Below are positions 6,085 through 63,006 of a stretch of 64,000 bases of DNA, in pieces. This DNA comes from Aureispira anguillae (GTDB taxonomy: Bacteria > Bacteroidota > Bacteroidia > Chitinophagales > Saprospiraceae). Location: positions 1,767,501 to 1,831,500 of the forward strand of contig NZ_AP026867.1 of assembly GCF_026000115.1 (NCBI RefSeq), given 5' to 3'. Position 1 is the first letter of the stretch. Each line of letters opens with the position of its first letter. The position numbers and the translations under genes are program-made. Under the pieces are notes generated by a model. It ran no database searches, was not told where the DNA came from, and worked only from the letters and a program-made list of their open reading frames with translations.

Positions 6085-7194
6085 ATGACAACAGAACATC
6101 GTTCTAGTATACCTAAAGTTGCTATTGTGATTTTGAATTACAACGGCATGAAAGATAATTATTTATCGGACTTTTTGCCTTCTGTTTTTGCTTCTGAATA
6201 TGCCAATTTAGAATTGTATGTAGCCGATAACAAATCAACAGATGATTCTGTTGCTTACCTCAAAAGCCAAGGATTTCAACCTCATACCGATAAAACTCAT
6301 CAGCCTTACGATTGCCCTAGGTATTTAATTGAAATGCCTGAAAATTATTGGTTTGCAGGGGGCTATAACAAAGCCCTAAAAGAAGTAGAGGCTGATTATT
6401 ATATTTTGCTGAATTCTGATGTCAAAGTATCGCCCAATTGGATACAACCCATCATAGATTTAATGGAACAAGATCCTCAGATTGCAGCTTGCCAACCCAA
6501 GATCAGGATGGTAGCTGAGCCTTATTTGTTTGAACATGCAGGGGCTTCAGGAGGCTATATCGATAAATGGGGCTATCCATTTTGTAGAGGTCGAGTTTTT
6601 ACAAAAGTAGAAGAAGACAAAGGACAATACGATCAAGTTTTGGAAGTTTTTTGGGCAACAGGAGCAGCCATGTTTATTCGAAAAGAGCTCTTTCACAATA
6701 TGGGTGGTTTTGATGAGGATTATAAAGCTCATATGGAAGAAATAGACCTCTGCTGGAGACTCAAACGAGCCAATTATAAGATCATGGTTTGCCCTCAATC
6801 TACGGTTTGGCATGTAGGAGGGGGGACGTTGCCGCAACATAGCCCCCAAAAGGCTTTTCTCAATTTTAGAAATAGCCTAGCAACAATTTTTAAGAACGAA
6901 GTAGGCAGCAAAGCTTACCGCATTGTTTTTATTCGTTTGTTACTGGATGCTGTAGCAGGGTTTAGATTTTTGTTGAATGGGGAGTTTGCGAATATTTGGG
7001 CCATCGTCCGAGCGCATTGGTCTTTCTTTGCCCAATATGGCAGAAACAAACAAAAGCGAAAAGAATCCGCCGCCATTATAGCGCAACATTGTTATGAAAA
7101 ACCACATTTTCGCCCAACGGGTGTTTACCCGAATAGCATTGTTTGGCAGCATTTTGTTAAAGGAAAACAGACCTTTGAAGAATTGGAGTTGTAA
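6085..7194 (+). CDS. glycosyltransferase family 2 (WbbL/rhamnosyltransferase type)
   Basis: GT-A-fold glycosyltransferase of 369 residues. Nucleotide-sugar binding region PKVAIVILNYNGMKDNYLSD at the N-terminus, then a DxD-like metal site in YYILLNSDVKVSPNW, and the acceptor-side motif HMEEIDLCWRLKRANYK followed by VWHVGGGTL, all as in WbbL-like GT2 enzymes that build O-antigen or other surface glycans. The C-terminal part (about 270-330) has hydrophobic helices that may bring it to the membrane face. It starts 2 bp after the ribF stop and is the last gene of the operon. A large repeat (R2) follows immediately. Confidence 0.9.
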   Translation: MTTEHRSSIPKVAIVILNYNGMKDNYLSDFLPSVFASEYANLELYVADNKSTDDSVAYLKSQGFQPHTDKTHQPYDCPRYLIEMPENYWFAGGYNKALKEVEADYYILLNSDVKVSPNWIQPIIDLMEQDPQIAACQPKIRMVAEPYLFEHAGASGGYIDKWGYPFCRGRVFTKVEEDKGQYDQVLEVFWATGAAMFIRKELFHNMGGFDEDYKAHMEEIDLCWRLKRANYKIMVCPQSTVWHVGGGTLPQHSPQKAFLNFRNSLATIFKNEVGSKAYRIVFIRLLLDAVAGFRFLLNGEFANIWAIVRAHWSFFAQYGRNKQKRKESAAIIAQHCYEKPHFRPTGVYPNSIVWQHFVKGKQTFEELEL

Positions 7195-7199
7195 TAATT

Positions 7200-7551
7200 T
7201 TCGTGCTTTGACAATCCATAGGCTCAGGCAGTAACCATGCAGAACCCCGCTTGCTGGCTCACGAGTGATAACGAACCAGCTCATAAGCGCTAGCGCACTA
7301 GCTAACCTAGCAGCGAACTAAAGCGCAGCGCTCATGAACGTAGTGAATAACAAAGCTAATCATGTAGAATATTAAACAGCCCTGCTCTCTTATTACTACT
7401 TTTGTTATAAGTTATAGTTTGTAAGTCGTATGCTTAGTTCCTGTAAATACAGGACATACGACTTAGAACCTATAACTCTCTACTAAAAGAAAAGTAGTAA
7501 AAAGCTTACCCTTTGTTAGGAGCTGTCACACGACTAGTCAAAGAACCACAA
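7200..7551. repeat. composite intergenic repeat R2 (about 350 bp)
   Basis: This fills the gap between convergent genes ending at 7194 and 7571. Its skeleton matches the reverse complement of 37381-37614: both share the TAGGCTCA-GCAGTAACCA-GCAG block (here 7219-7242), GCTAATCATGT-GAATA (7355-7370), TTACTACTTTTGTTATAAGT (7393-7412), a long hairpin (7393-7500) and AGCTTACCCTTTGTT (7503-7517). Between 7243 and 7350 it holds extra modules missing from the other copy: module C (GCTTGCTGGCTCACGAGTG, 7249-7267), module B (GCTCATAAGCGCTAGCGCAC, 7279-7298) and an A-like module (7328-7350). Ends are imperfect inverted repeats (CTTTGAC at 7206-7212; GTCAAAG at 7537-7543). Confidence 0.85.
7393..7500. other. 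nested long hairpin inside repeat R2
   Basis: Outer arms TTACTACTTTT (7393-7403) and AAAAGTAGTAA (7490-7500), then GTTATAG (7411-7417) with CTATAAC (7470-7476), then TAAGTCGTATG (7422-7432) with CATACGACTTA (7455-7465), then TCCTGTA (7439-7445) with TACAGGA (7448-7454). The sister copy at 37399-37523 keeps the stem with different bases. No T tract on either side, so it is not a simple terminator. Confidence 0.85.
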
Positions 7552-7570
7552 CTTTTAATATTCTAAGACA

Positions 7571-9100
7571 TTAAAGCTCTCCATCAAAATCGGGAGGCAG
7601 CATTTTTTGTATGTGTTCATCTGGTGTATCAATAGGAACCTCTACCTTAAAGACATCAGCGGCTACTCGTTCCCCTTTATGGTTGATACAATACGATTCA
7701 TTTTTTTCAATTACCTGTGCAATGCCATTTTGAAAATGACTAACATAATTGTATTTAAAAGGAATGATCTCATTGCCTTCAATGTCTATAAAACCCCATT
7801 TTTCCCATTTTTTAACCCCTGCTAAATTTTCACTAAAATTGTAAGCCGCAGTGTATTTAGGAGCAATAATAATGCTTTGATCCTTGGCATTTACAAAGCC
7901 CCATTTATTGGTTTTTTCATCCAAAAAAGGAGTAACATTCTGAAGATAACCAATCAGTTTTAAGGCATGTTCAATTCGGTACAATGCCTCGTGGTTGATA
8001 CTTTGGATGCTTTCCAACAATAAATCGGCCATGCGTTGGTAGTTCTGAATTTTATACAAACGAGCGGCTTCTTTTAATGTGTTTTCTAGGGTGTATTCAC
8101 GGTCACAAATTTGAATTTTATGCTCAATGACTTTTCGTTCTGGAGTAAAGTTGCTTTGATGATATTCAAGGGCTGTTGTGTATGCTTCTTTTGCCATTTT
8201 CCATTCTAAGGACAAAAAGTATTCATGCCCCTGTGTTAAATGTTGTTCAAAAGGAGCTCTTTTTTCTCGCAAGTCCTCCTCGTCCAAATAAGCTTTTACC
8301 TTAGTATACAGTCGTCGAATGACGGCATCATCTCTTAGATCAAGGGCATCTTTGCAATTAAAAAAGCAAGTTTGATAGTCGTGAATTTTATATGCTTCAT
8401 GTGCGGCTTTAGAATAATGCCTAAAATCTATTTCACGATGACAGATTTCGATATGAGCTTCTATTATTTTTCGATCAGGAGCAAAGCCCTCTCGCCAATA
8501 AGCTAAGGCTTCTTTGTATAGCGGTAGGGCACTTCTAAGTTGCCCTGGATGCCTTTGCCAATGGTTAAAAATAGCCTCTGCTTCCGTTATTTTGAGTTTA
8601 AAAACTTCTTCCAATTCTGCCTTTCGTTGTCGAACTTTCTCCAGTTTTTTATCAAGTTCCTCTACTACCTGATCAAACAATTCATTTTTTATATTAGAAC
8701 TATCATAAATAGGAAGCCCTGCTCGTGGCAGCACATCTAAATTTTTGAACACGGTATCTTCCCACCAACAGGTATTCAAAATAATGGGGACAACAATACT
8801 TCTTTCGTTATCGTGCTGTTGCAAAGTTTCCCTTAATTCTCTAGAAATAAAAAATGGGGACAAAATAGAGTTGTCGCTCATAAGCAGCAAAACCAAATCA
8901 GCAGCTTCTGTTAATTCACGAATGCTTGCTCGACCAGATTCCGAGAGATCTGTACCATCATACCAAACCTTGTTGACCACATAACCCCTGTTTTTTTTGT
9001 CCAATTCCATTAGGTACTGCAACAGTTCCTCAAATTGGGCTTGATCTTTAGGGTGATAAGCAATGAAAATATTTAATGTATAGGTTGCTTTTAAGTGCAT
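7571..9100 (-). CDS. TIR domain protein with TPR-like middle and C-terminal WG repeats
   Basis: Cytoplasmic protein of 509 residues with no signal peptide or membrane helix. Residues 8-140 match a TIR_2-type domain: NIFIAYHPKD (beta-A), DGTDLSESG, VLLLMSDNSILSPF, then ISREL, where E88 sits at the position of the catalytic Glu of bacterial TIR NADases, and VVPIILNTCWW. Residues 150-390 are alpha-helical TPR-like pairs (ALPLYKEALAYWREG, AKEAYTTALEYHQ). Residues 395-480 carry two WG (KWG) repeats: NKWGFVNAKDQSIIIAPKY and EKWGFIDIEGNEIIPFKY. TIR proteins act in NAD-consuming signalling or phage defence; WG and TPR parts usually bind partners. It stands alone, so a defence role is inference. Confidence 0.82.
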   Translation of the reverse strand: MHLKATYTLNIFIAYHPKDQAQFEELLQYLMELDKKNRGYVVNKVWYDGTDLSESGRASIRELTEAADLVLLLMSDNSILSPFFISRELRETLQQHDNERSIVVPIILNTCWWEDTVFKNLDVLPRAGLPIYDSSNIKNELFDQVVEELDKKLEKVRQRKAELEEVFKLKITEAEAIFNHWQRHPGQLRSALPLYKEALAYWREGFAPDRKIIEAHIEICHREIDFRHYSKAAHEAYKIHDYQTCFFNCKDALDLRDDAVIRRLYTKVKAYLDEEDLREKRAPFEQHLTQGHEYFLSLEWKMAKEAYTTALEYHQSNFTPERKVIEHKIQICDREYTLENTLKEAARLYKIQNYQRMADLLLESIQSINHEALYRIEHALKLIGYLQNVTPFLDEKTNKWGFVNAKDQSIIIAPKYTAAYNFSENLAGVKKWEKWGFIDIEGNEIIPFKYNYVSHFQNGIAQVIEKNESYCINHKGERVAADVFKVEVPIDTPDEHIQKMLPPDFDGEL

Positions 9101-21396: not shown

Positions 21397-22551
21397 TTAG
21401 TTCTCCAAAAGGTTCATAATTTCGTCCAATTGAGGAGACAAAATGATGTCAGTTCGGCGATTTTTTGCTTTGCCTGTATCAGTATCATTAGAAGCAACAG
21501 GAACATGTTCACCACGTCCAGCAGCCGTAATTCTTTGCGGAGTAACCTTATTTTTTATCAATTGGTTGACAATAGATAACGAACGTTTGGTACTTAATTC
21601 CCAGTTCATCTTCTCATCTCCATCGCTATCCGTATGCCCTTCTACCAAGACATTAATTTCCGTATTTTTATTAAGTACCTCCGCCAATTTAGTAATGGCA
21701 CTAGCTCCTTTGCTATCTAGTCTAGAGCTTCCCGTTGCAAACAACAAATTTTGGCTTAAAGAAACATAAACCTTTCCATTGCGTTGTTCAACACTTAAGT
21801 CAGAGGCTTCAAAGCCCAATAAAGCCTGAGATAATTTATCTTTTAGTGCTTTGGCTTTTGCATCCCGTGCAGCAATCGCACTTTCTAGTTCTTTCACTCG
21901 TTGTTCCCGTGCAGCCAAGCTACTTTCTAAGTCTTTGACTTTTGTTTCACGAGCTTTGAGGCGATTTTCTAAATCTTTTAATTTTAGCTCACGCTCTTTG
22001 AGGCTTTTTTCTAATTCCGATTTGTCCCCTTGAAGATTGTTAATATTTGCATTTTTATTTTCCAAATCTTTTTGAAGGCGATCAATTTCTGCTCGTTCCT
22101 GATCCATTTTTTGTTTTAGATCAGCCATGTCTCGTTCACGGCGACGAATTTCGTCTTCTTTGCGACGCAACTCATCTTCCTTACGGCTAACCTCTTCGGT
22201 TAATTCTCTTCGTTTACCAGCAGCTTCTTGCGTTAGCTTTTCATTCACTTCAAGTAATTTGTCATAAAGTACTTGAAGGTCTTTGTTTAGTTTTTGTTGT
22301 TGTTCATAACGGGTTTTAATTAGCGTATAGTCCTTATCCAACTCTGCCAGCTCCTTTTCAATTTTTTGGATTTCAGACTCCGCCAATTCTCTTTGTTCAT
22401 TGGCTTGTTTGGCTTCTTCTATTGCTTCTCTAGTTTGTCTTTCAGCGGCATTTCTCGCTGTTACTTCTTCCTGAAATCGTCTATTCGGGACACAAGAAAG
22501 CAAAGTGCCAAAAAGGAAAATAATGAAAATATAATTTAAATGTTTTAGCAT
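21397..22551 (-). CDS. OmpA family lipoprotein with long coiled coil
   Basis: Outer-membrane lipoprotein of 384 residues. MLKHLNYIFIIFLFGTLLSC is a lipoprotein signal (lipobox LLSC). Residues 28-240 are an almost uninterrupted heptad-type coiled coil (EELRRKEDEIRRRERDMADL; repeats of the form LKxLExRLxAREx at about 190-235). Residues 255-375 form an OmpA-C/MotB peptidoglycan-binding domain (LLFATGSSRLDSKGASAI, VLVEGHTDSDG, SLSIVNQLI, ITAAGRGEHVPVASN, NRRTDIIL), with the Asp and Arg that hold diaminopimelate. It should bridge outer membrane and cell wall across a long spacer. Followed on the same strand by a shorter relative at 22642-23502 (upstream), so the pair may form one unit. Confidence 0.92.
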   Translation of the reverse strand: MLKHLNYIFIIFLFGTLLSCVPNRRFQEEVTARNAAERQTREAIEEAKQANEQRELAESEIQKIEKELAELDKDYTLIKTRYEQQQKLNKDLQVLYDKLLEVNEKLTQEAAGKRRELTEEVSRKEDELRRKEDEIRRRERDMADLKQKMDQERAEIDRLQKDLENKNANINNLQGDKSELEKSLKERELKLKDLENRLKARETKVKDLESSLAAREQRVKELESAIAARDAKAKALKDKLSQALLGFEASDLSVEQRNGKVYVSLSQNLLFATGSSRLDSKGASAITKLAEVLNKNTEINVLVEGHTDSDGDEKMNWELSTKRSLSIVNQLIKNKVTPQRITAAGRGEHVPVASNDTDTGKAKNRRTDIILSPQLDEIMNLLEN

Positions 22552-22641
22552 AATTACCTATTTATTGATATTCGTTAAGAGCAAATTAAAAATAGTGTTA
22601 AATATTGTATTCATACACAGTAACTTTAGCCTAGTTTGGCT

Positions 22642-33299: not shown

Positions 33300-33376
33300 T
33301 CTCGAAGAACTCAGCTTGCTGGCTCACGAGTGATAACGAGGAAACCAAGCAACGTAGTTAGACTAATGGAGTATTA
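33300..33376. repeat. intergenic repeat R3 (module C plus boundary motif)
   Basis: Module C (CAGCTTGCTGGCTCACGAGT at 33312-33331, then GATAACGAG) is followed by a short tail and the boundary GGAGTATTA (33368-33376), which abuts and overlaps the stop codon of the kinase gene at 33374. It separates the kinase from the response regulator in what would otherwise be one operon. Confidence 0.75.
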
Positions 33377-35299
33377 ATATTTATAGCTTAAAGGTAAGGA
33401 AAAAGATACTAAAGTCCCCTTGTTTTCTAATCCTTTCATATCGAAATAAATTTTATTTCCTCGTTTTTTATTCAAGAAATGCAAGCGATCTTTGGTGATT
33501 TTAACCGCTAACGATTTGTGAGTCTTAACAGAAGGTGAAGCTAGGCTATTTTCTAGCCCAATGCCATTATCTTTGACCTCAATATGCAGAATTTGATCCT
33601 TGATGGTGATGTTTACCGTGACTTTGCCCTTGTAATTAATATTTTTTAGACCGTGCTCCAAGGCATTTTCAATAAAAGGCTGCGTCAACATAGGAGGAAT
33701 CAACATATTGTCTAAATCAATAGCCTCATCAACTTGAATGTTGTATTCAAAACTATTATCAAAGCGCAACAATTGCAATTTAAAATAATTATTGAGCCAC
33801 TGAATTTCTTTTTCTAACGAGATATATTCCTCCATAGAATTTTCGAGAATGGTTCGAATCAGGGTGGCAAAAGAAGCTAAATATTCTCCTGCTTGAAGGG
33901 GCTCTTTTTGGTAGACATAATTTTGGATGGCAACCAAAGAATTAAAAATAAAATGCGGGCTCATCTGATTGCGGAGCAAACGATGTTTGAGTTGGTTGGT
34001 CAGGTGTTGCGCATTGATTTTGTATTGACGCATTAACAAAAAGGAAATCACCAAGATTAAGGTAATTGCCAAAAAAGAAAGATAGACCAATTGCCGATTT
34101 CTATCTGCTCTTAGTGTTTCAAGCTCTTTTTCTTGCGCCAATAAACTATTCTCTTGTTCTTTTTTTTCGGTTTCATATTTGATTTCTAATTCTTTGATTT
34201 GTTGCTGCTTATCAGAATTGAGTATAGAGTCTGCTAAAATTTGAGTTTTATTTTGTGTATAAAATGCTTTTTCAAAATCCCTAAGTTGGATATAATTATT
34301 AACTAGACCCTCTAGTGCTTGTCGTTGATAAGAGATTTCATGAATTTGTTGAGCAGTATCTAATATATTCGTGTAGGCTTTAATGCTTTGGGGGTAATTT
34401 CCTTGTTCAAATTGAATGGCTGCTAAGACAATTTTGAGGTGCATTTTATGCGTTTTAGATTGAATTTTATCTTCTATCGCAATGGCTTTTTTTATACTTT
34501 CTAAGGCAAGGTCTAGTTTTTTTTGAATCTTATAGATGTTGGACTTATTGGAATGTGCAATGGCTTGATATTCTAAATTTTGATTGTTTTGAAATAAGAT
34601 CAAGGCTTGGTCAAAGTATAAAAGCGCAGAATCAAGTTCTTCCATCTCCGTGTAGATCAATCCAATATTATAAAGCGTAGAAGAAATGCCAAGAGAGTGC
34701 TTCATTGTTTGATAAATATGAAGTGCTTGTTTGCCATTTTTGAGTGCTTGAGGGTATTCCTTTAAAATAATATCAATGCTTAGTAGATTGGACAAGATTG
34801 GTGCAATAGCAAAGGTGTCGTTTAGCTGCTCAGAAATATCTAGACTCTTGTAAGCGTATTCCGATGCTTTTGTATATTCATGTGTTCTACAATAGACCAT
34901 ACTCTTATTGCTAAAAACTCTAGCAACTCCCCTAAGGTTGTTTGTTTTTTTGTAAAAAAACAAAGCACTATCTAAATAATTAAATGCAAGAGAGGGCTTA
35001 GATAGATACTGAGCAAGAACGCCCAAAAAATTATAGGTTTTCCCCGCAAATGCTACATTGTTAGCTGGAAGAAGCTGTAGGGCTTGGCGCCCCAAATCTA
35101 GCGCTTTTGAAGGGTTGGTATGCTGGTATTGTTTTGCAATTTTTATGTATATTTTAGCTCTACTTAACGAATCAGTAGTTGTCAATAGAAGCTGTTGTAA
35201 ACTGTCAATCTTTTGTTGAGTTTGTGAAAATACAACTTGATTTAGGAGTAAGGAACAGAGAAAACAAAGTCCTATTCTTGTCAAGAAAACAAAGTTCAT
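33374..35299 (-). CDS. TPR-containing sensor histidine kinase (LytS/His_kinase family), copy 2
   Basis: Sensor kinase of 641 residues. Signal peptide (IGLCFLCSLLLNQVVFSQ), then about eight TPR units (residues 30-370: ALDLGRQALQLLPAN, ALLYFDQALILFQNN, LDLALESIKKAIAIED) that should face the periplasm, a coiled segment (TEKKEQENSLLAQEKELE), one transmembrane helix (about 405-425) and a cytoplasmic PF06580-type kinase: phosphoacceptor His in NQMSPHFIFNSL, N-box FIENALEHGLKNI, G-box DNGIGLENS. From residue 373 to the end it is nearly identical to the kinase upstream (35404-37329), while the TPR half differs widely. Followed by a LytTR regulator, the likely phosphate acceptor. Confidence 0.92.
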   Translation of the reverse strand: MNFVFLTRIGLCFLCSLLLNQVVFSQTQQKIDSLQQLLLTTTDSLSRAKIYIKIAKQYQHTNPSKALDLGRQALQLLPANNVAFAGKTYNFLGVLAQYLSKPSLAFNYLDSALFFYKKTNNLRGVARVFSNKSMVYCRTHEYTKASEYAYKSLDISEQLNDTFAIAPILSNLLSIDIILKEYPQALKNGKQALHIYQTMKHSLGISSTLYNIGLIYTEMEELDSALLYFDQALILFQNNQNLEYQAIAHSNKSNIYKIQKKLDLALESIKKAIAIEDKIQSKTHKMHLKIVLAAIQFEQGNYPQSIKAYTNILDTAQQIHEISYQRQALEGLVNNYIQLRDFEKAFYTQNKTQILADSILNSDKQQQIKELEIKYETEKKEQENSLLAQEKELETLRADRNRQLVYLSFLAITLILVISFLLMRQYKINAQHLTNQLKHRLLRNQMSPHFIFNSLVAIQNYVYQKEPLQAGEYLASFATLIRTILENSMEEYISLEKEIQWLNNYFKLQLLRFDNSFEYNIQVDEAIDLDNMLIPPMLTQPFIENALEHGLKNINYKGKVTVNITIKDQILHIEVKDNGIGLENSLASPSVKTHKSLAVKITKDRLHFLNKKRGNKIYFDMKGLENKGTLVSFSLPLSYKY

Positions 35300-35403: not shown

Positions 35404-37329
35404 TTAGTATTTATAAACGAGAGGAAGGGAAAAAGATACTAAAGTTCCTTTATTTTCTAGCCCTTTCATATCAAAATAGATTTTATTTCCTCGCTTTTTG
35501 TTCAAGAAATGCAAACGATCCTTGGTGATTTTAACCGCTAATGATTTGTGAGTCTTAACAGAAGATGAAGCTAAACTATTTTCTAGCCCAATGCCATTAT
35601 CCTTGACCTCGATATGTAGAATTTGATCCTTGATGGTGATGTTTACTGAGATTTTGCCTCTGTAATTAATGTTTTTTAGACCGTGCTCCAAGGCATTTTC
35701 AATAAAAGGCTGTGTCAACATAGGAGGAATCAACATATTTTCTAGATCAATAGCCTCATCGACCTGAATGTTGTATTCAAAACTATTATCAAAGCGCAGC
35801 AATTGCAATTTAAAATAATTATTGAGCCACTGAATTTCTTTTTCTAACGAGATATATTCCTCCATAGAATTTTCGAGAATGGTTCGAATCAGAGTGGCAA
35901 AAGAAGCTAAATATTCTCCTGCTTGAAGGGGCTCTTTTTGATAGACATAATTTTGGATGGCAACCAAAGAATTAAAAATAAAATGCGGGTTCATCTGATT
36001 GCGGAGCAAACGATGTTTGAGTTGATTGGTCAGGTGTTGCGCATTGATTTTGTATTGACGCATTAACAAAAAGGAAATCACCAAGATTAAGGTAATTGCC
36101 AAAAAAGAAAGATAGACCAATTGCCGATTTCTATCTGCTCTTAGTGTTTCAAGCTCTTTTTCTTGCGCCAATAAACTATTCTCTTGTTCTTTTTTTTCGG
36201 TTTCATATTTGATACTCAACTCTCTGATTTGTTGTTGCTTTTGAGTACTCAGCATATCATTTTTGATGTTAAAAGCTTCTATGAAATAATTGAGCGCATC
36301 CTCAAATTTTTTAAGCCCCCTAGATGTCCTCATCAAACCCGTTAATGCTTCGTATTGATAATGTAAACTTTCTTGTTGTTTTGCTAGTTCTAGAAGCTCG
36401 GCATAAAAAAATAAGCTTTGAGTATATTTTTGAGTATTGAACAAAAGAAACGCTCGATCTTGGTGTAAGCGCATAAGGCTCTCTTTGGATTTACTTTGCT
36501 TTGCTAAATCAATGGCTTGATTCATGTTTTGTAAGGCGAGGTCGATTTTGCCTTGCATTTCATAAACAGAAGTTTTGGTAGAATAGACCCCTATAAGATG
36601 GTCAACATCATTCTCTTTTAAGAAAAAGCGTTGGGCTTCTTCAAGGTAAAGAATGGCAGAATCCAATTCTTCGGTATTGGAATAAACAATTCCTACATTA
36701 TAGGTGCTGGAAGCCACGTCAAAAGGATCATTCATCTTTTTATTAATGGCAAGTGCTTCTTTGACATTCTCTACCGCCTTTGCTGCATCTCCCAGTACTA
36801 AATTGACAATAGATAGGTTGTTTAATATTTTAGAAATATTAGATGAATCTTTTAACTCCTTGTTAATATCTAAGCTTTTGTAATAACATTCAGCGGCACT
36901 TACATAGTCATTTTGTTGAGAGTAAATCGCCCCTTTGTTGATATAAACACTAGCAATTCCTAATTCAAATTGTTCTTTTTCAAAAAAATACATAGCGCTA
37001 TCAATATACGTTAGCGCAATAGAAAAATTAGCTAAGTGAGCATTCGCACTAGCCAAAAGATTATACCGATAACCTAGCTTATTATAAGCTTCTTTAGAGA
37101 GGAGGGATAAAGATTGTTGAGTATATTGAATGGCTTTTGTTGGGTGAGCATACAGATACTTTTGAGCAAGGTTATACAATAGTTTTGATTGCTCCTCTGT
37201 ATCTTTTGTGCTTGATAATAGCTTTTCCAAGCTATCTATTTGACTTTGTGGTTGACCATAATTAATGGTAGAAAAAAATAAAAAACAATAGAGAAGGTAA
37301 ATACCTTTTGTAGGACTAAATGTATTCAT
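35404..37329 (-). CDS. TPR-containing sensor histidine kinase (LytS/His_kinase family), copy 1
   Basis: Same length (641) and plan as the next gene: signal peptide (GIYLLYCFLFFSTINYGQ), periplasmic TPR array (AIQYTQQSLSLLSKEAY, AAECYYKSLDINKELKD, AILYLEEAQRFFLKE), coiled segment, one transmembrane helix and a LytS-like kinase with NQMNPHFIFNSL, FIENALEHGLKNI and DNGIGLENS. The alignment to the copy at 33374 has a constant offset of 2030 bp without gaps over the last 810 bp; at 36213 the similarity stops abruptly. First gene of the HK-HK-RR unit, 104 bp from the next. Its start lies 51 bp from repeat R4. Confidence 0.92.
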   Translation of the reverse strand: MNTFSPTKGIYLLYCFLFFSTINYGQPQSQIDSLEKLLSSTKDTEEQSKLLYNLAQKYLYAHPTKAIQYTQQSLSLLSKEAYNKLGYRYNLLASANAHLANFSIALTYIDSAMYFFEKEQFELGIASVYINKGAIYSQQNDYVSAAECYYKSLDINKELKDSSNISKILNNLSIVNLVLGDAAKAVENVKEALAINKKMNDPFDVASSTYNVGIVYSNTEELDSAILYLEEAQRFFLKENDVDHLIGVYSTKTSVYEMQGKIDLALQNMNQAIDLAKQSKSKESLMRLHQDRAFLLFNTQKYTQSLFFYAELLELAKQQESLHYQYEALTGLMRTSRGLKKFEDALNYFIEAFNIKNDMLSTQKQQQIRELSIKYETEKKEQENSLLAQEKELETLRADRNRQLVYLSFLAITLILVISFLLMRQYKINAQHLTNQLKHRLLRNQMNPHFIFNSLVAIQNYVYQKEPLQAGEYLASFATLIRTILENSMEEYISLEKEIQWLNNYFKLQLLRFDNSFEYNIQVDEAIDLENMLIPPMLTQPFIENALEHGLKNINYRGKISVNITIKDQILHIEVKDNGIGLENSLASSSVKTHKSLAVKITKDRLHFLNKKRGNKIYFDMKGLENKGTLVSFSLPLVYKY

Positions 37330-37380
37330 TGGTGTTTTTTTAGAGGCGAATGAATTAAATAGATGTAAGTTGGTAACACG

Positions 37381-37614
37381 AACAAAGGGTAAGCTTCCTA
37401 CTACTTTTAGCTTCGCTGCTACTATGTAGTTTAGAAGAAAATTATAGATAGTAAGTCGTAAGTCCTGTATTAACAGAGACTAAACACAGGACTTACGACC
37501 TATAACTTATAACAAAAGTAGTAATAGGAGAACTGGGCTGTTTTATATTCCACATGATTAGCTTCGCTGCTACTGCGTGGTTACTGCGTGAGCCTACGGG
37601 CTATCAAAGAACCA
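37381..37614. repeat. composite intergenic repeat R4 (inverted relative of R2)
   Basis: Between divergent genes. Read on the minus strand it matches the R2 skeleton: TAGGCTCACGCAGTAACCAC (at 37576-37595), GCTAATCATGTGGAATA, TTACTACTTTTGTTATAAGT (37505-37524), the hairpin, and AAGCTTACCCTTTGTT (37383-37398). It lacks the 108-bp block of extra modules in R2 but has module D (TAGCTTCGCTGCTACT) twice: at 37408-37423, inserted inside the outer hairpin arm region, and at 37559-37574. The right end ATCAAAGAACCA (37603-37614) matches the right end of R2. Confidence 0.85.
37399..37523. other. long hairpin inside repeat R4
   Basis: Outer arms TACTACTTTT (37399-37408) and AAAAGTAGTA (37514-37523); inner perfect 14-bp stem GTCGTAAGTCCTGT (37455-37468) with ACAGGACTTACGAC (37486-37499). 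Compared with R2 the stem base pairs differ but pairing is kept. Confidence 0.85.
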
Positions 37615-41654: not shown

Positions 41655-41686
41655 CAATGTACACCTAAATAAACCAATCGTCCAAC

Positions 41687-43039
41687 TTATTTTTTTACAA
41701 ACTTTTCATTGATGACGGTGTTTCCCGAAGTATATTTCAAAATATAAGTACCTTGACTTAGGGTAGAAATATTTAAACTAACAGAAGTAGTCGAAACCGT
41801 TTTAGACTGAATATTTTTACCATTAAGGTCTAAAACTTCTAGGCTGGCCTCAGCATTGTTTGGTAAACGCACATTTAAAGTTGAGGTAGCGGGATTTGGA
41901 GTAATTTGCAATTGATTTGACGGTTCTAGCTCTCCATCTAATCTTGCTTTTGCATTGTCTTGATCCACTGTCGAAGTTGCTTTCTTAGAAGTGCTACTTG
42001 ATCCAGAGCTAGAGCCTGCGGCACCTGCTGGCAAACACAATAATTTTTCACAGATTTTACATTCCTTGTCAATTAATCCTAATTTAACACAATAATCCAC
42101 ACTATTGGGGCAACAAGTCAATTCTAAGGTAGGAGGGAATTGTAAATCTAAGGAAATCGTTTGATTGACAACTGTTGGTACAGGGAATTCATAGACAATC
42201 TCTGCGGAACCACTAGTGCTTGGTCCTGTAAATGTTGGTGTTACTCCTGCGATTATAGGCAAGTTGGTGATTTTTCCATACTTAGAAATATTAGCAGGAT
42301 CACATTTGATGCATTCAGAATTCGCTGATGACTCGTAATAAGGGATGGATACATTTAGTTTTGAAAGTGGAACACCTGCCGAGTTTACATTAACATCAAC
42401 AGAGGTAGCCCCTGAACTGGGAATTGAAGAACTAGCTCCAATTAGTTTGAGATCTTTGTTGTCACAAATACAATTGTCACAGCAATCGTATAAGATCGAA
42501 TCCAAGAAAATACCATAACCAACCGTTCTGTTATAAGTTAGGGTTACTGTGGTTAAAGGGGTTGGACCAAATTCTACCCAGCCCAAGGTGTTGTTAACTC
42601 CGAAGGGAGGTGTCAATGTTCCAGCTACGTTATTAAACATTGGACCTGCGGGGCTAATAGAGGGGGATATGCTTGTAAACATAGGGCTAGTTGTCATTGT
42701 TTCCGTAGGAGGGGTAGAGGTTGGACCATAATCCAAGTCATTTACCTTTAGCTTTAGGTTACAGACAGGGTGTAAAAAATTAAGGGTAATCGTAACGGTT
42801 GTTGTTGGATCAGTACCCGTACTAGATGGAAAAAGGGCACTCGTCCCAGAGAGAGAATGCGTAGATGGGTTAGAAGTTAACTCAATAACATTTTGAATAC
42901 CACAGGCAGCCGCTCCTGTGCTACTGCTGTTGCTATTGGTGGCTACCCAGCCAAAACTATTGGCATAACCTTGGGCATTTACAGAAATACTTGCTGCCAT
43001 TAGAAATAGAGCAGCCAAAAAGATTTGAATTGATTTCAT
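41687..43039 (-). CDS. T9SS-sorted secreted protein, tandem paralogue 1
   Basis: Start at 43039 gives signal peptide MKSIQIFLAALFLMAASISV followed by NAQ; a longer frame start exists at 43084. About 450 residues: an N-terminal beta-sandwich domain (SFGWVATNSNSSSTGAAACG ... TVTITLNFLHPVCNLKLKVN, LGWVEFGPTPLTTVTLTYN), a Cys-rich middle (YDCCDNCICDNKDLKLIG, CIKCDPANISKYGKI, LTCCPNSVDYCVKLGLIDKE, CKICEKLLCLP), and a T9SS sorting domain (ITPNPATSTLNVRLPN to NEKFVKK). The Cys pairs suggest many disulphides outside the cell. Close relative of 43443-44780. A triple 21-bp direct repeat lies about 280 bp upstream. Confidence 0.87.
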   Translation of the reverse strand: MKSIQIFLAALFLMAASISVNAQGYANSFGWVATNSNSSSTGAAACGIQNVIELTSNPSTHSLSGTSALFPSSTGTDPTTTVTITLNFLHPVCNLKLKVNDLDYGPTSTPPTETMTTSPMFTSISPSISPAGPMFNNVAGTLTPPFGVNNTLGWVEFGPTPLTTVTLTYNRTVGYGIFLDSILYDCCDNCICDNKDLKLIGASSSIPSSGATSVDVNVNSAGVPLSKLNVSIPYYESSANSECIKCDPANISKYGKITNLPIIAGVTPTFTGPSTSGSAEIVYEFPVPTVVNQTISLDLQFPPTLELTCCPNSVDYCVKLGLIDKECKICEKLLCLPAGAAGSSSGSSSTSKKATSTVDQDNAKARLDGELEPSNQLQITPNPATSTLNVRLPNNAEASLEVLDLNGKNIQSKTVSTTSVSLNISTLSQGTYILKYTSGNTVINEKFVKK

Positions 43040-43154
43040 AAAATTGGTTTTACAAAGTACGGGGCAAAAATAGGAATGAACCATTTAAAGCATGAATCTA
43101 CCTAGAACGATAAGTTTAATGTCTAATGCTGTCTATATTGGGGCAGATCAATAA

Positions 43155-43206
43155 CTTTAGTTAGTGATTCCTCGTGTCATGCTTAGTTTGCCTTGTACTC
43201 CGTTAG
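43155..43206. repeat. degenerate intergenic repeat remnant
   Basis: TTAGTTAGTG, then TCGTGTCATGCTTAGTTT, then the boundary TACTCCGTTAG (43196-43206) resemble the left half of R6 (61152 onward) in diverged form. Low copy quality. Confidence 0.45.
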
Positions 43207-43315
43207 TTTTAATAAAAATAGTACTTGGCAAGTCGGGAATAAAAATAAAAAAGGGGTGACTTGCTATTTCTCTTTAAAGATAAGACTGGGGAAATGAAAT
43301 ATAATTCAAAATTAA

Positions 43316-43364
43316 TATTCGTAATTGTTAGATGATTATTCGTTAACTACAAGCCCTTATTCGT
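43316..43364. promoter_or_regulatory. triple 21-bp direct repeat (TATTCGT), LytTR-type operator candidate
   Basis: TATTCGT occurs at 43316-43322, 43337-43343 and 43358-43364, exactly 21 bp apart, with flanks TAA or TA in each copy. This is the spacing of LytTR operators. It lies between the two T9SS paralogues, upstream of the one at 41687. A minus-strand octamer TAATTTTG (43307-43314) abuts it. Confidence 0.65.
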
Positions 43365-43375
43365 AATAAATGCAA

Positions 43376-43412
43376 AAGAGCCATCCCTTTTTAGGAATGA
43401 CTCTTCATTTTT
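43376..43412. terminator. hairpin after the second T9SS paralogue
   Basis: Stem AAGAGCCATCCCT (43376-43388) with AGGAATGACTCTT (43393-43405), two mismatches, T run to 43412 on plus and A run on the left. It lies 31 bp beyond the stop of the gene at 43443. Confidence 0.65.
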
Positions 43413-43442
43413 TAGTTGTTGTAAGCAAGTTGATTCATCAAC

Positions 43443-44780
43443 CTATTTTTTGACAAATTTTTCATTGATAATAGTTGATCCTGAGGTGTATTTTAAAATA
43501 TAAGTACCTTGACTTAGGGTAGAAATATTTAAACTTACAGTAGTTGAAGACACCTTTTGGGATTGTATATTTTTCCCATTTAGGTCTAAAATATCTAGAT
43601 TCGCTTCCTTTTCATTAGGAAGGGTTACGGTTAAGGTAGACATGGCAGGATTTGGGGTAATTAATAGTTTCGCAGAAGGGCTCGGTACACCATCTAATCT
43701 CGCTTTTGCATTATCTTCAATGATGGTAGAAGTTGCTTTTTTAGGCGTGACACCTAATCCTGTAGAACTGATGTTATTTAAGCACAATAGCTTTTCACAG
43801 ATTTTACAATCCTTATCGATTAATCCTAATTTAATGCAGTAGTTAACCTTATTTGGACAACACTTAAGCGCTAAGGTTGGAGGGAATCTTAGGTTTAATG
43901 TAATACTGTGAGCAATAACCGTTGGTGTACTAAATTCGTAGACGATCTCCGCAGAGCCACTAGCAGTTGGTCCCGTAAATGTCGGTGTTACCCCTGCAAT
44001 AGTAGGTAAGTTAGTGATTTTACCATACATAGAAATATTAGCAGGGTCACACTTGATACATTCTGTATCCGCTAAAGATTTATAGTAAGGAATGGATACA
44101 TTTAGTCTTGAAATAGGAACCCCTGAAGAACTAATGCTAACCGTTGCAGAAGTTATCCCTGAGTTTGGAATGCTAGAAGTTCCAGCTAACTGAATGTGCT
44201 TGTCATCACAAATACAGTTTCTGCAGCAATCGTAAGTTAGAGAATCTAAAAACGCATGGTAGCCTGTTATTCTGTTGTAGGTTAAGGTCACAGAACTGAT
44301 AGGAGTTGGACCAAATTCTACCCAGCCCAAGGTGTTGTTAACACCAACAGGAGGTGTCAAGGTTCCTCCAACATTGTTGAATAGGGGACCTGCTGGGCTA
44401 ATAGAAGGCGCAATACTCGCAAACATCGGGCTAGTGGTCATTGTCTCAGCAGCAGGCGTAGTAGCAGAACCATAATCTAAATCGTTTACTTTTATCCTTA
44501 AATTACAGACAGGTTGCGAAAATCGAAGCCTAATGGTAATAGCGGATGTTGTATCACTTGTGGTAATTGGAAGCCTAGCACTTGTTCCATTTAATGTGTG
44601 AGTGGCTGGACTAGAAGAGAGTTGAATAAAATTCTGAGTTCCACAGGCCGTAACGGTTGTGCTACTGGTATTGGTGTTTGTTCCTACCCACCCAAAGTCA
44701 CCAGCATAATTTTGAGCAGTTGTAGAAGTACTTGATGCTATAATGAATAGAGCAACCAAGAAAATGTGAATTGGTTTCAT
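43443..44780 (-). CDS. T9SS-sorted secreted protein, tandem paralogue 2
   Basis: Start at 44780 gives signal peptide MKPIHIFLVALFIIASSTST followed by TAQ. About 445 residues with the same order as the paralogue at 41687: beta-sandwich start (DFGWVGTNTNTSSTTVTACG, LGWVEFGPTPISSVTLTYNR), the same Cys pattern (YDCCRNCICDDKHIQLAG, CIKCDPANISMYGKI, KCCPNKVNYCIKLGLIDKD, CKICEKLLCLN) and a T9SS domain (ITPNPAMSTLTVTLPN to NEKFVKK). The linker before the sorting domain differs most, and the first copy has a Ser-rich insertion there. A tandem duplication, older than the kinase pair at 33-37 kb. Confidence 0.87.
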   Translation of the reverse strand: MKPIHIFLVALFIIASSTSTTAQNYAGDFGWVGTNTNTSSTTVTACGTQNFIQLSSSPATHTLNGTSARLPITTSDTTSAITIRLRFSQPVCNLRIKVNDLDYGSATTPAAETMTTSPMFASIAPSISPAGPLFNNVGGTLTPPVGVNNTLGWVEFGPTPISSVTLTYNRITGYHAFLDSLTYDCCRNCICDDKHIQLAGTSSIPNSGITSATVSISSSGVPISRLNVSIPYYKSLADTECIKCDPANISMYGKITNLPTIAGVTPTFTGPTASGSAEIVYEFSTPTVIAHSITLNLRFPPTLALKCCPNKVNYCIKLGLIDKDCKICEKLLCLNNISSTGLGVTPKKATSTIIEDNAKARLDGVPSPSAKLLITPNPAMSTLTVTLPNEKEANLDILDLNGKNIQSQKVSSTTVSLNISTLSQGTYILKYTSGSTIINEKFVKK

Positions 44781-59475: not shown

Positions 59476-59607
59476 CATTACTTCGTGGAAAACTTGAAGG
59501 CTCACGTAGTAGCAGCGAAGCTAATCGCATTAAACTATCTCATGAGCGCAGCGAATAACTAAGCACAGCACTCATGACCACAGGGACTAATCCACGAAGT
59601 ATTACTT
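59476..59607. repeat. palindromic-ended intergenic repeat R5
   Basis: Perfect 11-bp inverted ends TACTTCGTGGA (59479-59489) and TCCACGAAGTA (59591-59601). Inside: module D in reverse (GGCTCACGTAGTAGCAGCGA, 59499-59518), module A (CTCATGAGCGCAGCGAATAA, 59539-59558), and an A-like unit (CTAAGCACAGCACTCATGAC, 59559-59578). It ends 18 bp before the next gene's ATG and fills most of the 329-bp divergent gap with M61. Confidence 0.85.
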
Positions 59608-61124: not shown

Positions 61125-61151
61125 ATATAATAAAGGTGTTTCTAGAACTAG

Positions 61152-61468
61152 TACTCCGTTGATTAGCTAGTGCGCTTTGCTTATGATCGCTTCACTCATT
61201 ATTCCCTGCGGTCATGAACGCTGTGCTTAGTTGTTCCCTACGGTCATGAGATAGTTGTTTAGTTTTTTAATGTTTTAAGTTGCAAAAATATATGGTGTTA
61301 ATAATCAACTGCGCAGCACTCATGCAATAATGTGATGCGATTAGCTTCGCTGCTTCTGCGTGGTTACTACGTGAGCTTTGTTACTCACTCTGTTTGTTAC
61401 TCGTACCTCGTGAGCCAGCAAGCTGGGTTCGTGAGGTCGCAAGCTCTGTTCGGGTTTTTAACGGAGTA
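61152..61468. repeat. large composite intergenic repeat R6
   Basis: 317 bp between inverted ends TACTCCGTT (61152-61160) and AACGGAGTA (61460-61468). From left: reversed module B (GCTAGTGCGCTTTGCTTATG, 61166-61185), two reversed A-type units (GTCATGAACGCTGTGCTTAG at 61211-61230; GTCATGAGATAGTTG from 61242), an AT-rich centre, GCGCAGCACTCATGCA (61311-61326), module D (GATTAGCTTCGCTGCTTCTG at 61339-61358, GGTTACTACGTGAGC at 61361-61375) and module C (CGTGAGCCAGCAAGCTGGGT, 61409-61428). Fills the gap between convergent genes ending at 61070 and 61484. No open frame. Confidence 0.88.
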
Positions 61469-62875: not shown

Positions 62876-63006
62876 TTTTTGCTTTTTTACAACTATTCTC
62901 ATGAGCATAGCGAACTAAAAAAAGCAAAAAACTATCTCACGAGTGTAACGAACCGACCTCAGGGAGCTCATAAGCGCTAGCGCACTAGCTAATTAACGGA
63001 GTATTA
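62876..63006. repeat. intergenic repeat R7 inside the preT-preA unit
   Basis: Left hairpin: TTTTTGCTTTTTT (62876-62888) pairs with AAAAAAGCAAAAA (62918-62930) around module A (CTCATGAGCATAGCGAACTA, 62898-62917), as in R1. Then a short C-type unit (CTCACGAGTGTAACGAACC, 62936-62954), module B (AGCTCATAAGCGCTAGCGCA, 62965-62984) and boundary TAACGGAGTA (62994-63003), 4 bp before the preT stop codon. Identical module B to that in R2 over 27 bp. Confidence 0.88.

Follow-up and report, generated by a model that had tools for sequence, protein, structure and literature searches.

Two composite repeats, R2 and R4, lie in opposite orientation in a 64,000-nucleotide stretch of Aureispira anguillae DNA (contig NZ_AP026867.1, positions 1,767,501 to 1,831,500; hereafter the window), and they raise the question of what kind of element is built as a larger repeat that seems to gain and lose short modules. 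Both repeats belong to a new non-coding MITE family in Aureispira, a foldback roughly 200 bp long that is bounded by terminal inverted repeats (GTTCTTTGACAAATCGTGTGG...). Inside R2-type and other Aureispira MITE families, modules occur as units of 20 to 38 bp that are present or absent whole, and it is this module layer that accounts for the modular repeats first seen in the window.

The skeleton that the original prediction recognized in inverse orientation at both places is real. A within-window comparison matches 7353-7487 with 37430-37564 over 135 nt at 85% identity, and further copies exist in the same genome (G000), where at least 79 matches to the R2/R4 family were found, a count that includes palindromic copies matched again on the reverse strand and comes from 40 scored candidates of 244. 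R2 lies on the forward strand, its limits refined to 7203-7546. It opens with the terminal inverted repeat end GTGCTTTGACAA (7203-7214), followed within the left terminal repeat by the 20-bp module T5, TCCATAGGCTCAGGCAGTAA (7215-7234), which also forms an indel between two relatives, G003 and G008 (p3 13311). Next comes the main module, T1, 22 bp long (CCACGNAGTAGCAGCGNAGCTA), in three pieces: CCATGCAG (7235-7242), TAGCAGCGAA (7308-7317), and GCTA (7355-7358). It is interrupted after 8 bp by 65 bp (7243-7307, made of 35- and 30-bp parts, which are found again in part at 33306-33339 and 62965-62992) and after 18 bp by 37 bp (7318-7354). Core I (7359-7534), a long foldback with arms at 7390-7417 and 7470-7500 and a tip at 7433-7455, leads to the right terminal inverted repeat end TAGTCAAAGAAC (7535-7546). 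The 8-mers on the two flanks, ATAATTTT (7194-7201) and ACAACTTT (7548-7555), form a target duplication with 2 mismatches.

R4 runs on the reverse strand from 37612 down to about 37369. Its left terminal repeat end GTTCTTTGATAG (37601-37612) precedes the same pair of modules as in R2, namely, T5 (CCCGTAGGCTCACGCAGTAA, 37581-37600) and an intact 22-bp T1 (CCACGCAGTAGCAGCGAAGCTA, 37559-37580). Core I follows (37369-37558); a right terminal repeat was sought there without success and has presumably been lost. Because the same T1 is intact in R4, the block of R2 that R4 lacks consists of two insertions nested within one T1. The original prediction gave the block as 108 bp of modules B, C and A; its absence from R4 is confirmed, and by our count it comprises 102 bp in two parts. 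The additional module D reported for the hairpin region of R4 is present; it is a second T1 copy with 2 mismatches, located in the right hairpin arm (37408-37429, reverse strand). T1-like modules also occur elsewhere in the window, at 59502-59523 on the forward strand and 61342-61363 on the reverse strand. No open reading frame (ORF) of at least 120 amino acids overlaps R2 or R4.

The ends of the larger element identify it as a MITE. Oriented copies start with GTTCTTTGACAA and finish with TTGTCAAAGAAC. Exact GTTCTTTGRYAA ends, compared with a reversed-pattern control, number 159 versus 8 in the same genome, 187 versus 4 in G001, 191 versus 12 in G006, 37 versus 9 in G008, and 36 versus 7 in G003, with 6 to 13 versus 4 to 8 in the remaining four Aureispira genomes. 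Ends of 20 bp with up to 3 mismatches number 106 in G001 and 212 in G006, against none in either control. Pairing of ends in 80 loci of the same genome, picked for a core or end match, gave 84 pairs in 69 loci. The 8-bp flanks, taken one base outside the ends, are identical in 36 of these pairs and differ at one base in 14, for a total of 50/84 against 2.2 expected from shuffled flanks (0.8 identical and 1.4 with one mismatch); ties in pairing were settled by flank match, which introduces a small bias. The target duplication is thus fixed at 8 bp and is mostly A+T-rich.

The 55 elements with no more than 2 flank mismatches measure 126 to 344 bp. By a pattern-based assignment, 36 of them carry core I, as R2 does, 13 carry core II, and 6 carry neither, although two of the latter (L099 and L131) resemble core I on reading. 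Two loci (L101 and L124) consist of ends plus modules only, without a core, and have identical flanks. No 16-mer is common to at least 5 of 19 stretches of the same genome, which indicates that the MITE family is sparse. Terminal inverted repeats, a target duplication of fixed length, a short non-coding body, and strong secondary structure are all features of MITEs; the exceptions at this locus are the right inverted repeat that R4 lacks and the two mismatches in the R2 target duplication.

Orthologous gaps were compared in eight relatives. The left neighbor of R2, a glycosyltransferase gene, has a DNA match in seven of the eight (not in G004), and in these seven the same right neighbor is not close to it. 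Scanning of 13 loci around both R2 neighbors gave no core I match, and no pair of ends lies beside the left-neighbor gene in the relatives' loci that were read; a single end match, in L309, is inside the right-neighbor gene. A different module-bearing element sits beside the left-neighbor gene at G003:C1 ~3672700-3672850 (L315), and this element is itself a G003/G008 indel, the two genomes differing there by one T1 (p3 20818). Upstream of the RecD2-like helicase gene to the right of R4, no core I was found in the eight relatives, over 700 bp in seven of them and 78 bp in G001. In that region, G008 has two weak matches that resemble ends, each with 2 mismatches. The core I pattern applied at both gaps is tuned to the A. 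anguillae genome, such that a diverged core is detectable only via its ends. Gene order differs among the genomes, and intergenic DNA has diverged too far for empty sites of R2 and R4 to be defined to the base. A full element in every related gap, with never an empty site, is not what the loci read from relatives display: no core I was found there beside the orthologous genes.

The genes around these gaps have features of their own. The gene to the right of R2 (7571-9100) encodes a TIR domain fused to WG repeats, and adjoining R4 are two tandem TPR/histidine-kinase genes (33374-35299 and 35404-37329) that share 89% identity across a compared length of 300 nt. Two more tandem paralogous stretches, 76 to 81% identical over three compared pieces, occupy 41683-44556.

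The modules have a distribution of their own. With up to 1 mismatch, AGTAGCAGCGAAGCTAA occurs 66 times in G000, 262 times in G008, 249 times in G003, 165 times in G001, and 101 times in G006, against 0 to 2 in controls, and it has no such match in the other four Aureispira genomes. Among 30 loci read, T1 lies in elements with several different ends (CAATAGTTCGTTGA, ATTACTCCGTTGA, GAAGTTGTTTA, and GTTCTTTGACAA), that is, in several MITE families. Moreover, G003 and G008 contain the most modules yet few R2-type ends. Both observations indicate that the modules are independent of the R2-type MITE. In the G003 stretches, just 2 of the 30 T1 sites fall within ORFs of at least 150 amino acids, though such ORFs cover 83% of the sequence.

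The limits of T1 are exact. When exactly 22 bp are excised at 65 T1 sites, the joined flanks are found elsewhere for 18 of them, as opposed to 0 to 3 when 14 to 21 or 23 to 30 bp are excised instead; the sites come from two samples (G003 and G008 stretches), and orthologous empty alleles are counted. These 65 sites represent 40 distinct 12+12 contexts, with G003 and G008 alleles counted apart, and many of them repeat at one MITE position (CAATAGTTCGTTGAAA^). Under a stricter pattern, the base preceding the CCACG of T1 is A at 31/31 sites in G008 and 25/25 in G003, largely the same places. The preceding base is likewise A at 37/38 non-Aureispira sites among the matches listed, where the A that follows T1 is set by the query itself. 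T1 is placed with an A on its left and an A on its right. It has neither terminal inverted repeats nor a clear target duplication; on reading, duplication of the target does not exceed one A at T1 or AA at the modules of p3 13311, p4 79271, and p2 75298. A TA target duplication for T1 was considered and rejected: although three G003/G008 sites agree with it, p5 835 does not, and in 36 of the 38 non-Aureispira sites a base other than T stands second to the left.

Outside Aureispira, the distribution of T1 is wide but rare. A search of genome_contigs with CCACGNAGTAGCAGCGNAGCTAA returned at least 120 loci, at least 82 of them in Aureispira, and the others comprise at least 38 loci in at least 26 assemblies, among which are isolates of Neolewinella, Faecalibacter, and Parapedobacter. 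All 26 listed non-Aureispira assemblies belong, as we take it from their names, to Bacteroidota. In the 25 loci read, the flanks of T1 differ from genus to genus. Within three assemblies, the same flanks appear on two contigs (L166/L227, L181/L209, and L224/L242), and T1 there is accordingly part of a repeat of that genome. By contrast with this spread, an even draw of 394 other genomes across the phylum, with no other Aureispira among them, contains no T1 at up to 2 mismatches. The viral_contigs collection contains no exact match for T1 or for the 21-bp MITE end.

Direct evidence for modules as units comes from aligning 540,554 bases of G003 with G008. Eleven of the 12 segments are 98.7 to 99.7% identical, and a misaligned block lowers the twelfth to 94%. 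That block (p4 21975-22626) accounts for 24 of 53 indel rows, which were dropped, leaving 29 indels of at least 8 bp that were sorted by eye; breaks from segment to segment were left out of the scoring. Thirteen of the 29 consist of one module, and two genomes cannot separate gain from loss. These 13 comprise five T1 copies of 22 bp, four of them base-exact and the fifth (p3 20818) with an allele lacking T1 that deviates at one base from clean excision; one module each of 22, 26, 20, and 38 bp; and four modules of a 34- to 36-bp type, one of which is cut to 23 bp. The other 16 are two composite modules, a 51-bp mini-MITE with T1, two whole MITEs (152 and 154 bp, duplication included), one MITE remnant, two partial modules, and eight others. 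Three more T1 copies are contained in the larger indels, and T1 sites fall within indels at 3/30 sites in G003 stretches and 5/35 in G008 stretches, denominators that include sites outside the aligned segments. The suggestion that a larger element gains and loses short modules is thus borne out by the nested insertions in R2 versus R4, by the coexistence of module-bearing and module-free copies in one genome, and by single-module presence or absence between genomes that are about 99% identical.

How did the modules get there? Modules exist as exact units, are present or absent between close genomes, and are used by several MITEs, and alongside these observations we infer an enzyme and a direction of change. 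The modules were probably inserted de novo by enzymatic activity and then spread passively, with MITEs and by gene conversion. The MITE would be moved in trans by a putative DDE transposase. Modules would insert de novo via a putative trans-acting enzyme that leaves a duplication of at most 1 to 2 bp (A or AA), would then be multiplied passively whenever the host MITE transposes, and might be swapped between MITE copies by gene conversion. Several observations run counter to this reading, namely, the failure of the ISL3, IS1595, IS6-type, and Y1 searches to identify a transposase, the lack of terminal inverted repeats and of a clear target duplication in T1, the unremarkable folding of the modules, the T1 sites that repeat at one MITE position, the flanks that recur in some other assemblies, the inexact p3 20818 allele without T1, and the zero matches in 394 phylum genomes. 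The recurring positions and flanks are what one would expect from co-transposition or gene conversion.

Searches for the movers covered a few families. An ISL3 origin for the MITE ends was suggested by their sequence together with a duplication of 8 bp, and IS1595 and IS6-type sources were considered too. An ISL3 derivation was rejected because the A. anguillae genome has no PF01610 match, and IS1595 and IS6-type sources were rejected with 0 matches in nine genomes. No insertion sequence (IS) with ends matching the MITE was seen in these searches (ISL3 in the same genome; IS1595 and IS6-type in nine), and no transposase for the MITE or the modules was found among the ISL3, IS1595, IS6-type, and Y1 searches. 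Candidate autonomous elements were taken as end pairs 1 to 2.6 kb apart among the matches listed; a reading of the raw sequence of two, at 3409881-3412450 on C1 of the same genome and 250356-251487 on C30 of G008, revealed no transposase.

A rather unlikely alternative is that the modules do not insert themselves at all and are instead shuffled only by gene conversion, slippage, and template switching between repeats that already share short flanks, carried along by MITEs. The module sites read do lie mostly in MITE-like repeats, one MITE position holds T1 in many copies, and the composite indels p2 94977 and p4 7124 occur between similar flanks. Also, the hairpin tip of core I (7433-7455 in R2) is found in both orientations among the 36 core I elements (19 forward, 16 flipped, and 1 unclear) with pairing unbroken, a sign of hairpin-templated exchange. 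However, T1 keeps its 22-bp limits across the 40 distinct contexts described above, and it stands beside unlike flanks in other genera, which exchange between flank-sharing repeats alone does not create.

De novo insertion followed by passive spread, which we prefer to shuffling, can be taken further. We tentatively propose, as a possibility short of a probability, that the 20- to 38-bp modules may constitute a mobile DNA class of Bacteroidota in their own right, with a dedicated putative enzyme, exact insertion between A and A, no terminal inverted repeats, at most 1 to 2 bp duplicated, MITEs as safe landing sites, nesting in other modules, and passage between genera. If this is true, the modules would rank with the smallest mobile DNA described. 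The limits of T1 are exact, its sites are numerous, its filled and empty alleles occur in two genomes that are about 99% identical, and four genomes of the genus lack it, so a responsible enzyme can be looked for by comparison and tested.

That the modules are functional sites, such as protein-binding or transcription elements, maintained by selection and not mobile, is improbable. Exact T1 matches in distant genera and the location of T1 mostly outside ORFs are in keeping with function, whereas the presence or absence of modules between genomes about 1% apart, the residence of T1 in MITEs of several kinds, and its absence from four members of the genus and from the phylum-wide draw argue against it.

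The foldback of core I invites the further idea that R2 and R4 belong to a structured RNA family and not to a mobile element. Folding is strong (z scores of -5.09 for R2 and -3.96 for R4), and in an alignment of 22 copies, 12 of 34 predicted pairs have changed on both sides with pairing kept across species, a count in which relatedness is not controlled. Full-length copies in G001 and G006 retain their length and ends while identity to the query falls to 67 to 70%. Nevertheless, an RNA family is very improbable: the window has no Rfam match at gathering scores, the elements carry inverted ends and 8-bp target duplications, core I is missing beside orthologous genes, and a palindrome kept by arm-to-arm conversion would yield the same covariation. 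The structure of core I and the pattern of its tip fit the exchange of DNA palindromes at least as well as RNA selection. Among the 36 core I elements, 13 have a non-ATCGTGTG inner end on one or both sides (more than 3 of 8 bases mismatched), and on reading, the module insertion points are mirror-symmetric in both ends, with one more in the right hairpin arm. A tRNA search of the window returned none.

Movement of the modules as REP/REPIN-type elements by a RAYT (Y1) transposase is scarcely credible. The modules match REP/REPIN in size and in intergenic abundance (PMC3116915 and PMC3733652), and module-bearing G006 has one Y1_Tnp match (L374). However, Y1_Tnp (PF01797) was not found in the other four module-bearing genomes (G000, G001, G003, and G008), it occurs once in module-free G004 (L375), and the eight modules that were folded gave no hairpin beyond shuffles. 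The modules are accordingly not typical REPs, and the RAYT route is rejected.

MITEs and BOX composites are the closest known kinds to the larger element, and the small dispersed repeats of cyanobacteria are closest to the modules. The original prediction knew of no described family with this plan, which holds only in part, given that the larger element is a MITE and that both BOX composites with optional inner modules and very small, possibly mobile cyanobacterial repeats are known. Bacterial MITEs such as RUP, NEMIS, Nezha, and ERIC (PMC3733652) are likewise short, non-coding, and intergenic, with terminal inverted repeats, target duplication, and strong pairing. The Aureispira element differs in that no IS in the families searched shares its ends and in that it hosts a second layer of exact mini-modules.

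The BOX element of streptococci is a composite repeat with optional inner modules, and in Streptococcus suis, the same boxB modules are common to different end pairs (PMC3049150). The Aureispira inner modules are, in the 30 loci read, similarly common to elements with different ends. BOX modules vary mainly as a tandem boxB array between fixed ends (PMC3049150). Unlike these, Aureispira modules split terminal repeats and each other, sit in a hairpin arm, and enter other MITE families, and the Aureispira elements showed no tandem run of a single module flanked by fixed ends.

In papers that cite them (PMC2884548 and PMC3116915), the small dispersed repeats of cyanobacteria are described as units about 20 bp long with possible mobility. 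The Aureispira modules are similar as dispersed, possibly mobile units of about 20 bp, a likeness judged by those descriptions. They differ in belonging to another phylum and in that single units are present or absent between two near-identical genomes. Elhai et al. in 2008 reportedly found that the cyanobacterial repeats insert into other repeats. The Aureispira modules bear on how DNA units of about 20 bp can spread, given that the text citing the cyanobacterial repeats goes no further than possible mobility. Among the listed titles and abstract openings of open-licence PMC articles, none points to the present repeats in Aureispira or to T1-like modules in Bacteroidota, which is no proof of absence from print.

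Finally, two observations concern other repeats. A second MITE-like end, TAATACTCCGTTAAT...ATTAACGGAGTATTA, is present in the window at 1616-1712, 61149-61176, and 62979-63006, with module-like sequence adjoining. Among the larger G003/G008 indels, p1 61644 (267 bp), which is flanked by the 10-bp direct repeat GGTGAAACTA, and p4 20942 (277 bp) are perhaps other mobile elements.
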